Assembly: GCF_003755185.1 (NCBI RefSeq) | Contig: NZ_RKIC01000017.1 | Location: forward strand, 1 to 37,569 | Reading direction: 5' to 3' | DNA: 37,569 nucleotides | Source of the DNA: Frigoribacterium sp. PhB24 | Lineage (GTDB): Bacteria; Actinomycetota; Actinomycetes; Actinomycetales; Microbacteriaceae | In this document: positions 8,882-37,569 of the stretch, piece by piece | Position numbering within the stretch: the stretch's first letter is position 1 | Layout: each line of letters opens with the position of its first letter | Made by a program: the position numbers and the translations under genes | The notes under the pieces: model-generated | What the model saw: the letters and a program-made list of their open reading frames with translations, nothing else | Databases searched by the model: none | What the model was told of the DNA's origin: nothing

Positions 8882-8899
8882 GAGCGGCCCCCTCCTGTT

Positions 8900-9240
8900 G
8901 GTGCCTTCATTATGCACGCACCCCTCGCGCAGCTCGGGATGGGTCAGCGCTCTGGCACCGAGGACGACCCCCCGGCGGGGTCGTCGTAGCCCTGGTTGGG
9001 CCACGGGCTCGGACTGCCCGCTAGCCGGTTCCCGAGCCCGACGTGCAGCCCGAGTGTGGCTCGGCCTTAGCTGCTCGACCGACGTTCACTCCCGCGACTT
9101 TCCTCGTTCCTCGTCAGCCGCTCCCGTTCACTTCCCGGTCGCACAGCACAGCCGCAGTCTCTACGATCCTGGCCGCCCGTCCACTCGTTCCTCGCTTCCT
9201 AGGTCGTCACACCTCTGGCATTCCCAATCAGCGAGGTAGA
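8900..9240. other. oriT: Candidate origin of transfer (oriT) and divergent promoters
   Basis: This 340-base gap between a divergent accessory gene and the relaxase has no convincing gene but several inverted repeats: GACGACCCC (8963-8971)/GGGGTCGTC (8977-8985), GGGCTCGG (9005-9012)/CCGAGCCC (9032-9039), and GCCCGAG/CTCGGCC around 9048-9066. Relaxase genes of this type commonly sit beside their oriT, with the nick next to such hairpins. The nick site cannot be assigned by eye. The segment must also hold the promoters of both flanking genes. Confidence 0.55.
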
Positions 9241-12200
9241 GTGACCCCCGTGATGACCATGCATATCCTCTCCGCGGGAGACGGTTATGCGTACTACACC
9301 GGCGAGACCGCGACCGGCGACGCCAAACGCGACCCGGACCGCGAGCTGGGCGACTACTACACCGCAGACGGCAACCCTCCCGGTGTCTGGGTAGGGTCCG
9401 GGCTCACCGCCCTCGGGGTCAGTGGCACCGTCTCCGAGGACCAGATGCGAGCCCTCTTCGGTGAAGGCCTGCACCCCGACGCTGACGCCCGGGTCGCAGC
9501 AGCGCAAGACGCCGGCGAGAGCGCCGAGGACGCCTTGGCCGCGTCAAAGCTCGGTCGTCGGTACAGCTCCTACGACCAGGGCGGGCAGGGGCTTCGGGGC
9601 GCCATCGACGAGGGCTACGCCCGGTTCGAGCGCACCGAACACCGCGAACCGAACGCCGACGAGCGCCGCGCGATTCGGGTCCGCGAGGGCGCCCAGGCGT
9701 TCCGTGAGGCCAAGGGCCGGCCCCCGGCCGACAAAGAAGAGCTGGGCCGGTTCATCACCGCAGCGTCCCGTCCGACGCAGCAGGCCGTGGCCGGTTTCGA
9801 CCTCGTGTTCTCTCCCGCCAAGTCCGTCTCGACGCTCTGGGGACTCGGCGACAACGACACCCGGAAGACCATCGAGCAGGCCCACGAGGCGGCAATCGAA
9901 GACACCGTGAAGTACCTCGAAGCCGAGGCCATCGCCACCCGTGCAGGGACCAATGGTGTCGCGCAGCTCGACGTCGAAGGCGGTCTCATCGCGACCCGGT
10001 TCCGGCACTACGACTCCCGCGCGGGCGACCCGCAGCTCCACGACCACCTGGTCGTGGCGAACAAGGTCAAAGGCTCCGACGGCAAGTGGCGCACCATTGA
10101 CTCCAAGCTCCTGCACCGCCAGGGCGTCGCCGCGTCTGAGTTCTACAACTCCCGTGTCATGGACCGCGTCACGGACGCTCTTGGCCTGACCACGGAGCTG
10201 CGCGAGGCCACCCCCGGCAAGCGTCCCGTGGTCGAGATCGCGGGCGTTGATGACCGCCTGACAGCCGGGTTCTCGTCCCGTTCGGCGGACATCAAAGCGT
10301 CGATGAAGAAGCTCGAACGCGAGTACCGCCAGGACCACGGGCGCGCCCCCGACATGAAGGCCCGCGTCCGCCTCGCACAACAGGCGACCCTCGATACCCG
10401 CCCTGCCAAGGCTCACGCACGGTCCCTGAAGGAACTGCGCGCGGGATGGCAGGCGCAGGCAAGCGCTGTCGTCGGTGACCGTGTCGTCGCGGACGTGCTC
10501 AGCAGTGCCAGGGAGGCGGCACAGCCGACTGCTGGCCCCCCCACGGCGCCTAGGACCGTGGGGGTTTCCGAGGCTGCACAGGCCATCGTGGAGACTGTGT
10601 CCGAGCACCACTCGGTCTGGGGTCCGCACACCATCGAGGCCGAGGCGCGTCGGTACGTCCAGGCGCAACGGGCCGCCGGTGTCAGTGTCGACGGCAGCGT
10701 CGACGAGATTACCCGGCACGCCCTCGACACCGACTCGGTGATTCTTACGCCCCCGTCTCCGCACGGGGCGTTCCAGCCCCTCACGAGAGCGGACGGCAGC
10801 AGCATCTACGAGCACAAGGGCCGCCAGCTCCTCACCTCCCGCAGCGTTCTCGTCGCCGAAGACACGCTGCTGGACGCTGCCCGTGACCGCACCGTGCGTC
10901 CCGTGAGCCGGGAGACATTCGACCGGATCGCGGCCGAGGAAAACGCCACCAGCACCCACCCTCTCGACCAGGGCCAGCACGCCCTCGCGGGCGAGTTCGC
11001 AACGTCCAGCGCACGCCTGGTCGTTGGCACCGGGCCCGCGGGCGCCGGCAAGACCACAGCCCTCCGCGTCGCCGCACGTGCCGTCGAGGCCGAGGGCGGC
11101 AAGCTCATCGGCCTCGCCCCGTCCGCTACCGCAGCAGCCGTCATGGCCGACGCGCTCGACGTCGACGCCAAGACCATCCACTCCTTCACGCACGGCACCG
11201 GCACCCTCACCGAGCTGCTGGCACACGAGGGACCCGTCGACGGAATCGACCTCTCTCCCGGCGATGTGATCGTGGTCGACGAGGCAGGTATGGCCGGGAC
11301 GATGAACCTCGCCAAGGTGACCCGCATCGCAGAGCTGCATGGCGCGCACGTCCGCCTCATCGGCGACGACAGGCAGCTCTCTGCCGTCGAGGCCGGCGGC
11401 GCCCTCCGCCTCCTCGAGCACGAAGTCGGCAGCGTCAAGCTCGACCAGCTCCACCGGTTCGTGGACCGCTCCGAAGCCGACGCCACCAAGGTCCTCCGTG
11501 ACCCGGCCCAGACAGGTGACCCGTTCGCCTGGTACATGGACCACGGCCGCGTCAGGGGCGGCGACGTCGACCGGATGACCGGCGACGTCTTCACCGCCTG
11601 GCAGGCCGACACCGAAGCCGGCAAGCACTCCGTGATGCTCGCCCAGACGAACACCACCGTCACCGAGCTCAACACCCGCGCACAGGCCCTCCGCATGTCC
11701 GAAGGCGTCGTCAAGGGCCGCGAGACGGTCGCCGTTCGGGGCGGCCTCTCGGCCTACCGCGGCGACGTCGTCGTGACCCGGTCGAACAACTCGGAGTTGA
11801 AAATCAGTGGCGGCCGTGACCGCGTGAAGAACGGCGACCTGTGGACCGTCCGCGAGGCGCACCAGGACGGTTCCCTGTCGGTCGAGCACACCACCAGCGG
11901 CGGCCGCATCACACTCCCGGCCGACTACGTCAGCCGGAACGTGGAGCTGGGTTACGCCTCGACCATTCACCGCGCACAGGGCATGACGGCCGACACCGCG
12001 CACGTCCTCGCCGACGCAGCGACCTCGCGGGAGCTGGCCTACGTCGGGCTGACCCGCGGCCGCGAGGCGAACCACCTCTACGTCGAAACGGCCGAGGCGC
12101 AGCCTGTCCGTGACGTCCTCGACCAGATCGCCGGCAACGCCGACGGGATGTTGTCTGCCACGGAGGCAATCCGCGCCGAGCAGGCCCGCGTCGATGACCT

Positions 12201-32209: not shown

Positions 32210-32491
32210 CCGACCGTAACCAGCCAGGCAAGCGAGATGGCAGCCCCACAACGGGCACCAACCCCCATCTGCCACGCCGCCAGGAAGAGCTGTGATTTAG
32301 AGTCCGCACGCTCCACACTCCAGCTCTGGCGCATTTGATCAGGTAAATGAGCGCCCGTAGAGGCCGGCCACATAGCATGCATAAGTGGTGTTTGGGTATA
32401 CCCCAGCACAACGGATGCCAGGAGGTGCGGCGCGCGTGGCGTTGGAGCGTGTTCTGCGTCTTTCGCCACAGGTGTGTGTCAGGGTCTAAGG
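32210..32491 (+). promoter_or_regulatory. Resolvase promoter and possible res site
   Basis: No gene is convincing here. A perfect 10-bp palindrome GGGTATACCC lies at 32394-32403 inside an AT-richer stretch that also contains GCATGCAT. Serine resolvases bind res sites directly upstream of their gene, so this segment is the natural place for one. The subsites were not aligned. Confidence 0.4.
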
Positions 32492-33091
32492 ATGGTGCAG
32501 CACAAAACACAGATTGTTGCGTACGTCCGAGTGAGCTCGGTGGATCAAAACCTTGGCCGGCAGCTCGAGGCCGTCGGTGACGTTGACCGGGTCTTCGAGG
32601 AGAAGGTCTCGGGCGGGTCGAGGGCGGACCGGGTCGCGCTCCTTGACTGCATCCGGTACGTCCGTGAGGGCGATGTGGTTAAAGTCGCCTCGATGGACCG
32701 GCTCGCACGGTCGCTTGGGGATCTTCGGGAGATCGTGGACGAGATCACGGGCAAGGGGGCCTCGGTGGTGTTCATGAAAGAGCAGCAGACCTACAGCCGT
32801 GACACGGACGATGCGATTGGCCGGCTGATGCTGAATCTATTGGGGGCTTTCGCGGAGTTCGAGCGGACCCTGATTCGTGAGCGGCAGCGGGAGGGCATTC
32901 GTCTTGCCCAAGCGGCGGGCAAGTACAAGGGCAGGTCTCAGAAGCTGACCATGGAGCAGCTCGTCGACGTGCGTCGACTAATCGAGTCCGGAGTCCCAAA
33001 GGCGAAGGTTGCCCGGGATCTGGGCATCGACCGAACGACTCTGTACAGGGCCCTTGCGCGAGGCGCGGGGGAGGGGCTGACGGTGGAATGA
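32492..33091 (+). CDS. Serine resolvase/invertase family recombinase
   Basis: The ATG at 32492 gives 199 residues. The catalytic domain starts IVAYVRVSSVDQNLGRQL with the nucleophilic Ser in the RVSS motif. It continues with DCIRYVREGDVVKVASMDRL, an Arg-rich active-site region with SLGDL, and LLGAFAEFERTLIRERQREG (long dimer helix). The C-terminal helix-turn-helix reads SGVPKAKVARDLGIDRTTLY. The size is that of Tn3-type resolvases and Hin/Gin invertases. On a plasmid it most likely resolves multimers; no transposase gene of the Tn3 family was seen. Confidence 0.92.
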   Translation: MVQHKTQIVAYVRVSSVDQNLGRQLEAVGDVDRVFEEKVSGGSRADRVALLDCIRYVREGDVVKVASMDRLARSLGDLREIVDEITGKGASVVFMKEQQTYSRDTDDAIGRLMLNLLGAFAEFERTLIRERQREGIRLAQAAGKYKGRSQKLTMEQLVDVRRLIESGVPKAKVARDLGIDRTTLYRALARGAGEGLTVE

Positions 33092-33207: not shown

Positions 33208-33248
33208 GACTCCCACCTGTGGGCGACCGGCTCTACGCGGTGGGAGTC
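33208..33248. terminator. Hairpin between convergent genes
   Basis: GACTCCCACC (33208-33217) and GGTGGGAGTC (33239-33248) pair perfectly around a 21-base loop, between the resolvase and carD 3' ends. Its position suggests a two-way transcription barrier, though no T-run follows on either strand. Confidence 0.45.
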
Positions 33249-33249
33249 C

Positions 33250-33705
33250 TTAGGACCTCGAGCAGTTCCGTGTCGGCATTCTCCGTCGTGATTTTGTTTT
33301 GTTAGCGAGGGCGAGTTCGGAGACGAGGATTTGCCGGGCGCGAGAGAGCATTTCTTTCTCGCTGACGGAAATGCCCTTGTCTTGTTCTCGTCGCCATACG
33401 TCACGGACGACTTCAGCGACTTTGTAGACGTCGCCGCTGAGCATCTTGGCTTGATTGTCTTTGAACCATCGGGACCAGTTAGTGGCCTCTTCGACGACTG
33501 CGACACGAAGAAGGTCGTAGCCCCTGTGGACGCCTGCCTGGTCGATGACGTCGCGGACTCCGAGGTCTGCTGCAGTCTCGATGGCGGCCTGGATGACGAG
33601 GTCGCTGCTGTGGACGCGGAGGGCCATGTACTTGGTCGGTGTGCCCTTGACGTTCCTCGTGGTAAGGCCAGTGATCGTGACGGCGCCGTGGTGGGGATAG
33701 ACCAA
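33250..33705 (-). CDS. carD: CarD-family RNA polymerase-binding regulator
   Basis: CarD binds RNA polymerase beta through an N-terminal Tudor-like domain and stabilises open complexes. From TTG 33705 the 151-residue product begins MVYPHHGAVTITGL. R17 (TTRNVKG) matches the polymerase-contact Arg25 of M. tuberculosis CarD. The DNA-contact Trp is W77 in TNWSRWFKDN, where the usual RR is RW. EVVRDVWRRE and ARQILVSELALA complete the helical domain. Codons upstream of the TTG still encode CarD-like sequence (TYRLGKT), yet contain no ATG, GTG or other start back to the UAG that ends lsr2 in the same frame. The family's initiator position is occupied by GCC. The protein is therefore either N-terminally short or made by readthrough. 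Confidence 0.88.
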   Translation of the reverse strand: MVYPHHGAVTITGLTTRNVKGTPTKYMALRVHSSDLVIQAAIETAADLGVRDVIDQAGVHRGYDLLRVAVVEEATNWSRWFKDNQAKMLSGDVYKVAEVVRDVWRREQDKGISVSEKEMLSRARQILVSELALANKTKSRRRMPTRNCSRS

Positions 33706-33738
33706 TGTCTTCCCGAGCCTGTAGGTGGCGGGTACCGG

Positions 33739-34077
33739 CTACTGGGCGGCGTTGTACGCGTCACGCACCGCGGCGGAGATCCGGCCGCGGCTTGAGACTG
33801 CGTGCCCGTTCTTCTCGGCCCAGTCGCGGATCTTCTGCAGCTCCGCCGGGTCCGACTTTGCCGTGGATGTGCGAGCTGCCGTCTTCCGGCCGCTTATCTT
33901 TCGACCGGCGGCGACGTACGGAGCCAGGGCCTTGTTCAGCTCCTCGGCGTGTGCCTGGCTGAGGTCGATCTCGTACGAGACCCCCTCGAGCGCAAACGTG
34001 ACGGTTTTGCCTACTCCATCGGAGAGGGCGGTGCCATCGAGGTCATCGACAAGCTGAACAAAAGTTTTCTGGGCCAT
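33739..34077 (-). CDS. lsr2: Lsr2-family nucleoid protein
   Basis: Lsr2 binds AT-rich DNA and silences foreign genes. The ATG at 34077 is preceded by GGAGA with 7-base spacing. The 112-residue product has the N-terminal dimer domain (MAQKTFVQLVDDLDG, then VTFALEGVSYEIDLS; 1-60), a basic linker, and the C-terminal DNA-binding domain (IRDWAEKNGHAVSSRGRISA, 83-102) with the RGR minor-groove hook. The length is typical. It ends in UAG and continues in the same frame into carD 11 codons later. It is adjacent to the most AT-rich genes in the window, its likely targets. Confidence 0.95.
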   Translation of the reverse strand: MAQKTFVQLVDDLDGTALSDGVGKTVTFALEGVSYEIDLSQAHAEELNKALAPYVAAGRKISGRKTAARTSTAKSDPAELQKIRDWAEKNGHAVSSRGRISAAVRDAYNAAQ

Positions 34078-37481: not shown

Positions 37482-37569
37482 TGTCAACTTAGGCCGGACC
37501 CACCAGGGCAATCTAAGCGGGACCCAGGGCGCTGTGTAGCGAGGGATACTGGGGTATGCGCGTGGAGAT
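37482..37569 (+). mobile_element. Left end of an IS21-like insertion sequence
   Basis: Begins with TG at 37482. The segment 37496-37526 is the exact inverted copy of 45-75. It is followed by a leader and the first codons of a probable istA, so the element enters here and continues beyond the window. The four bases before it (GCTA) do not match the bases after the other end (TAGT), so no target duplication is evident. Confidence 0.65.
37556..37569 (+). CDS. istA: Partial istA, IS21-family transposase
   Basis: Only the first codons are present: ATG CGC GTG GAG AT, encoding MRVE and one more residue, preceded by GAGGGATACTGGGGT. Actinobacterial IS21 transposases often begin with MRVE-type sequence. 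The call depends mainly on the terminal repeats just upstream, because four residues prove little by themselves. Confidence 0.5.

Follow-up and report, generated by a model that had tools for sequence, protein, structure and literature searches.

How is carD translated in a locus where it follows lsr2 in the same reading frame, separated from it by a TAG stop codon, with no canonical start codon ahead of the conserved CarD N terminus? The locus lies in the window, i.e., the whole stretch of DNA analyzed (37,569 nucleotides), which is the entire contig C9 (37.6 kb) of the Frigoribacterium sp. PhB24 genome (3.46 Mb in 17 contigs). The initial annotation had offered three answers: readthrough of the UAG to give a silencer fused to a polymerase activator, a CarD that starts at a downstream TTG and lacks the first strand of its polymerase-binding domain, or a recently broken fusion. 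Our comparison of relatives points to another answer, which we consider probable on the strength of the aligned sequences: an acquired lsr2-carD pair in which carD was recently broken, with lsr2 intact and the host keeping its ordinary carD.

Lesions and constraint in the window carD

The two observations from which the question arose are borne out by the sequence: the lsr2 stop codon and the carD stretch are in one frame, and the eleven codons between that stop and the TTG at 33705-33703 (CCG GTA CCC GCC ACC TAC AGG CTC GGG AAG ACA) include neither ATG nor GTG nor TTG (Table 1). Both domains of the Lsr2 family, one for dimerization and one for DNA binding, are present in the lsr2 product (Pfam: PF11774, 89.8 bits, and PF23359, 59.5 bits).

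Table 1. Positions of the genes, codons, and lesions at the lsr2-carD locus of the window
Feature	Position	Strand	Remarks
Recombinase-like gene	32474..33091	+	Converges on the lsr2-carD pair
Remains of the conserved CarD tail, LLEVLRTPTA	33233..33292	-	Readable in another frame only; TAG at 33235-33233
carD open stretch	33250..33738	-	Shares the lsr2 frame; 162 codons, opening without a start codon and closed by TAA at 33252-33250
ACAAA-ACAAA tandem repeat	33293..33302	-	Five bases more than in each of five relatives
TTG	33703..33705	-	Earliest ATG/GTG/TTG, in any frame, past the lsr2 stop; sole candidate initiation codon of any residual CarD
GTA	33733..33735	-	Lost start codon, by alignment to relatives
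lsr2 stop codon TAG	33739..33741	-	
lsr2	33739..34077	-	112 amino acids, ATG start, intact; sole Lsr2 match in the host genome

The lost initiator became apparent on alignment with five intact relatives of the pair, from Frigoribacterium endophyticum AS3.20 (G007), Frigoribacterium sp. CFBP 13712 (G003), Frigoribacterium sp. Leaf263 (G002), Frigoribacterium faeni (G006), and Frigoribacterium sp. NBH87. In all five, the codon aligned to GTA of the window is a start codon, namely GTG in AS3.20, NBH87, and CFBP 13712 and ATG in Leaf263 and F. faeni (the comparison is confined to rows of the pair, most other CarD rows being offset by a few residues from the printed codon). A decayed remnant of the pair in a further genome (G008) also retains GTG at that position. 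NBH87 has two candidate starts, since its annotated carD begins at another GTG, located two codons earlier and overlapping the lsr2 stop. The initiator had been placed at GCC by the initial annotation; it is instead the GTA, and the window carD has no usable start codon at this position. The initial annotation had named homologues with a regular initiator immediately ahead of a TYRLGKT-like sequence as the finding that would speak against its proposal, and such homologues do exist.

A second lesion, absent from the earlier account, lies near the 3′ end of carD. According to the alignment, five extra bases shift the frame, and a basic tail of unrelated sequence takes the place of the ending conserved among relatives (...LLEVL.TPT.). 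Since an ACAAA repeat is found at the site, the extra bases presumably arose by tandem duplication. Measured against its intact homologues, the window carD therefore carries disabling lesions of the kind that mark a pseudogene, at the start and in the tail.

The residues between the two lesions have also changed. In the numbering of the host's ordinary CarD, the window CarD is altered at four near-invariant residues (V70G, R88W, A122V, and G123S), compared with 0, 1, 0, 0, and 0 such changes in the five other pair members. Columns counted as near-invariant when conservation reached at least 90% in a set of 70 other CarDs (69 distinct sequences from the loci, with identical copies removed, plus the host's ordinary CarD); the residues altered in the window are also kept by all other pair members. 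A count of unique changes among the six pair members only gave 8 of 99 columns for the window and the same for AS3.20, and it is therefore too crude to single out the window. A glutamine at canonical position 47, present in all pair members, was considered as a special RNA polymerase-contact change and rejected, the other CarDs mostly having Q, K, E, or T there too.

In a two-ratio codon model, for which the best topology out of three was used (that grouping the window with AS3.20), the carD branch of the window had an omega of 0.068 compared to 0.024 elsewhere, a difference that is not significant at 0.05 (p = 0.057), and an omega of 1 was rejected for this branch (p = 0.001). The lsr2 branch of the window showed no shift (omega 0.056 versus 0.068, p = 0.83), and for it an omega of 1 was not rejected (p = 0.12). 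Among six branch tests, only that of NBH87 lsr2 revealed a significant shift, and this was toward stronger constraint (p = 0.0009). Because neutrality is rejected over the whole carD branch, selection acted for most of its length, and either the lesions are recent, which is the more probable, or some function remains.

Indeed, much of a CarD is still encoded. The 162-codon frame has no internal stop, and CarD_C (PF21095) is recognized with 98.4 bits at a Pfam cut-off of 23.1, compared to 106.8 and 120.3 bits in two intact relatives and 128.6 bits in the host's ordinary CarD. The N-terminal RNA polymerase-interacting domain (RID; PF02559) is borderline, with 22.9 bits for the whole reading at a cut-off of 23 and 24.7 bits in a genome search. 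The wedge tryptophan, described in an excerpt of PMC4593161 as the conserved minor-groove wedge of CarD, is kept at canonical position 85 in the window as in 70 of 70 other CarDs. An AlphaFold model of the post-TAG reading, built from an alignment of the window with 33 relatives picked from 80 loci, has a mean pLDDT of 81.9, with the first strand at residues 11 to 14 and low confidence for residues 150 to 162, and the predicted fold matches CarD in the open promoter complex of Mycobacterium tuberculosis (6edt) with a TM score of 0.84. The stop-free frame, the CarD_C score far above its cut-off, the retained wedge tryptophan, the equal number of unique changes in AS3.20, and the rejection of neutrality all count against erosion. 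Nevertheless, the start lesion and the tail lesion, combined with the four near-invariant changes, argue that carD is being lost, and recently so.

In our model, lsr2-carD is an acquired operon of two genes that lies on a plasmid-like contig. In the intact pairs, carD starts 2 to 4 bases past the lsr2 stop and its start shows little Shine-Dalgarno pairing (0.7 to −1.7 kcal/mol at the four relatives' starts scored), and therefore translation of CarD is probably coupled to that of lsr2. The GTA in place of GTG or ATG would remove most CarD synthesis, and the five extra bases would replace the last residues of whatever is still made, which would most likely start at TTG 33705. lsr2, in turn, would stay intact and continue as the DNA silencer of the element. 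Loss of carD is presumably tolerated because the host retains its chromosomal carD (G000:C3:42212), immediately upstream of ispDF. This model is supported by a parallel in G008, in which lsr2 and carD of such a pair have both decayed. Of the "recently broken fusion" in the initial annotation, the recent breakage thus stands; what broke was a separately started carD of the ordinary kind and no fusion.

Residual initiation, sequence errors, and readthrough

It is conceivable that carD still works by reinitiation at TTG 33705, yielding a CarD of 151 residues that is ten residues shorter in front and has a new tail; we regard this as unlikely. The TTG is the first possible start after the lsr2 stop, and a Shine-Dalgarno match is found there, weak as it is (−4.3 kcal/mol); the open frame and the rejection of neutrality on the carD branch would also fit. 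Furthermore, little of the fold would be lost: the TTG is residue 12 of the post-TAG reading, within the modeled first strand, and a start there is predicted to cost the N-terminal leader and one strand residue, and not the whole first strand as had been supposed. However, the RID score falls to 20.4 bits when read from the TTG, below the cut-off, although scores for RID are low throughout the pair group (24.5 bits in intact AS3.20), the tail is changed too, and the four near-invariant residues are altered. The relatives do not have the TTG: the aligned codon is CTG in four of them, and NBH87 has TTA and then GTG. As an evolved alternative start, the TTG is ruled out (0 of 5 intact relatives), and what stands of the earlier proposal is that a residual protein of 151 residues is possible, as judged from the model.

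An error of sequencing or assembly, with a normal start and tail in the true genome, is in our view improbable. In its favor, two lesions fall in one gene, and the junction with lsr2 is otherwise very similar in DNA sequence to that of AS3.20. However, a substitution at one end of the gene and five bases added at a 5-base repeat near the other, next to a clean lsr2, are in our judgment unlike a typical error, and the residue changes between the lesions also point to relaxed constraint.

Readthrough of the UAG would produce an Lsr2-CarD fusion of about 275 residues, in which a silencer is joined to a polymerase activator. The frame is indeed continuous and open to 33250, with no start before the TTG, and AS3.20 and Leaf263 share it. 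In NBH87, CFBP 13712, and F. faeni, however, carD lies in another frame, every intact relative starts carD at a separate codon, the lsr2 stops of these five vary (TAG in three, TGA in two), and the genes are unfused in all these pairs. A shared frame is expected by chance in one of three cases and was found in three of the six pairs, and therefore needs no explanation; a fusion product would require a conserved frame, and the frame is not conserved. Readthrough is accordingly very improbable. The GTA itself as a weak start, reached by termination-reinitiation from the TAG three bases upstream, is hardly credible: spacing and flanks are as in AS3.20, where GTG is the start, but to our knowledge GTA is not accepted as a bacterial start, and the tail lesion would be left unexplained. 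For GUA as a start, no value is given in the excerpt of PMC11497404.

The element, its relatives, and the fate of the ordinary carD

The probable loss of carD is under way on a contig that carries conjugation-type genes. Positions 9000 to 30300, in and around genes for a MobF relaxase and transfer-type functions, resemble plasmids of related actinobacteria (30 records, the best of them covering 27% of these positions), and the contig is therefore plasmid-like. A check for circular closure found no terminal overlap of at least 20 bases, and the last 20 bases of the contig have no second copy on their strand. Copies of AATCTAAGCSGGACCCA lie close to the two ends of the contig and are oppositely oriented (positions 1 to 17, 45 to 61, and 37510 to 37526), three matches compared to 0.01 expected; they may be ends of the element or repeats that broke the assembly. 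Between 32900 and 34600, no sigma-70-like promoter was found for the pair, and two terminator-like sites compare to 1.6 expected, from which we make no claim. A recombinase similar to the one that converges on the pair adjoins it in AS3.20 and on plasmid NZ_CP043651 of strain NBH87, where it is annotated as a recombinase family protein, and lsr2, carD, and the recombinase may be mobile as one module. Window, AS3.20, and NBH87 thus share the adjoining recombinase, and F. faeni, Leaf263, and CFBP 13712 share flanking synteny.

The pair is present in 5 of 16 Frigoribacterium genomes (G000, which is that of the window, G002, G003, G006, and G007), and the NBH87 plasmid carries a sixth. G008 has a chromosomal remnant (L054, about 8890-9340; G008:C1) with stops or frame breaks in both lsr2 and carD. 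A search for Lsr2 in the 12 genomes of the genus without an intact relative pair (that of the window included; G002, G003, G006, and G007 outside the search) matched only the window's genome and the remnant in G008. Since no match was found in the other 10 of these 12, Lsr2 in Frigoribacterium seems to come together with the pair.

Beyond the genus, no pair was found among 110 CarD loci scanned (flanks of about 1.5 to 2 kb in nearly all; that of NBH87 larger). lsr2 was nearby in nine of these loci, which represent only five different pairs because four were retrieved in duplicate; all are from Frigoribacterium. CarDs as near to that of AS3.20 (E ≤ 1e-60) were encoded in 4 of 398 genomes of the family (85 genera), again all Frigoribacterium; CFBP 13712 was not among the matches listed. 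Among 28 plasmid records matching CarD, five were looked at, and NBH87 alone has the pair: the plasmid genes of Tsukamurella and Arthrobacter ERGS1:01 are of the ordinary ispDF-linked kind, that of Rhodococcus adjoins uvrA and a sigma-factor gene, and the unannotated CarD-encoding stretch of the StoSoilB13 plasmid has no lsr2 match. A phage search returned two matching records (one with E = 5e-16 and 51% query coverage, the other with E = 3e-14 and 86%), and no relative was confirmed in viral contigs. The initial annotation had suggested looking on plasmids and phages for fusions or neighboring pairs; a neighboring pair is indeed found on NZ_CP043651, and a fusion in none of these pairs. Our literature searches found no published report of an lsr2-carD pair and, among the papers listed, nothing on point concerning loss or paralogues of CarD genes. 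In Micromonospora, according to an excerpt of PMC7587189, Lsr2 and CarD genes do not form a pair; both belong to a disA-carD-ispDF neighborhood of the ordinary kind, at a distance of 15 genes from each other, an arrangement that may hint at the origin of the pair.

Leaf263 and CFBP 13712 are without the ordinary carD. In both genomes, PF02559 matches only the lsr2-linked CarD and a protein of about 1,230 codons, which we take to be Mfd, and a search with the ordinary CarD as query at E values up to 10 found only the lsr2-linked CarD. Upstream of ispDF (L154, G002:C4:668000-674000; L155, G003:C7:52300-58500), the ordinary carD has been lost by a deletion in place: the sequence preceding the gene still aligns, as do its first codons, which now run into ispDF. 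In Leaf263, the lsr2-linked and the ordinary locus lie on one 791-kb contig. Between Leaf263 and CFBP 13712, the differing codons are 15 synonymous and 1 nonsynonymous of 143 in carD, 10 and 10 of 110 in lsr2, and 91 and 45 of 401 in ispDF; between F. faeni and CFBP 13712, they are 26 and 6 in carD and 17 and 20 in lsr2. F. faeni retains both CarDs and its lsr2-linked carD is constrained as well, and therefore loss of the ordinary gene does not by itself account for the tight constraint.

We tentatively propose, as a possibility that falls somewhat short of an even chance, that lsr2-carD is a horizontally moving unit of a silencer and an open-complex stabilizer whose CarD can take over the housekeeping role, as in Leaf263 and CFBP 13712, which have lost the ordinary carD and in which no CarD other than the lsr2-linked one was found, with the opposite outcome under way in the host of the window, where the acquired carD is being lost and the silencer kept.

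Comparison with known silencers and CarD proteins

In sum, the comparison of relatives replaces the idea of a silencer-activator fusion with ordinary gene loss. Within one genus, the pair appears to have met three fates: it persists intact as an accessory copy, it decays, or it apparently takes the place of the housekeeping carD. Mycobacteria require CarD for viability, but its relative CdnL is not essential in Caulobacter (PMC10232725 and PMC5324124, both in excerpt). Frigoribacterium may offer a natural experiment on whether an acquired version can displace a general transcription factor essential in mycobacteria.

With CarD/CdnL, the RNA polymerase-binding stabilizer of open complexes in actinobacteria, the window carD shares CarD_C, a borderline RID, the fold, and the wedge tryptophan. 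In contrast to it, the window gene follows lsr2 on a plasmid-like contig and is not located ahead of ispDF, and it has lost its start codon, has a frame-shifted tail, and scores weakly for RID. With Lsr2 and plasmid-borne xenogeneic silencers, the window shares both Lsr2 domains. Lsr2 is commonly encoded on plasmids, with 300 plasmid records matching it, and PMC7074111 deals with acquired homologues of silencers that plasmids carry, as an excerpt of that paper indicates. What sets the window apart from plasmid-borne Lsr2 is that lsr2 is directly followed by carD, an arrangement found, among the records examined, only in Frigoribacterium. The closest counterpart on a plasmid is the NBH87 pair, which has the same gene order and the adjoining recombinase (protein identity of 76.8% for Lsr2 and 77.6% for CarD). 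Unlike in the window, however, carD of NBH87 begins with GTG and keeps the normal tail, lsr2 ends in TGA, and the two genes differ in frame.
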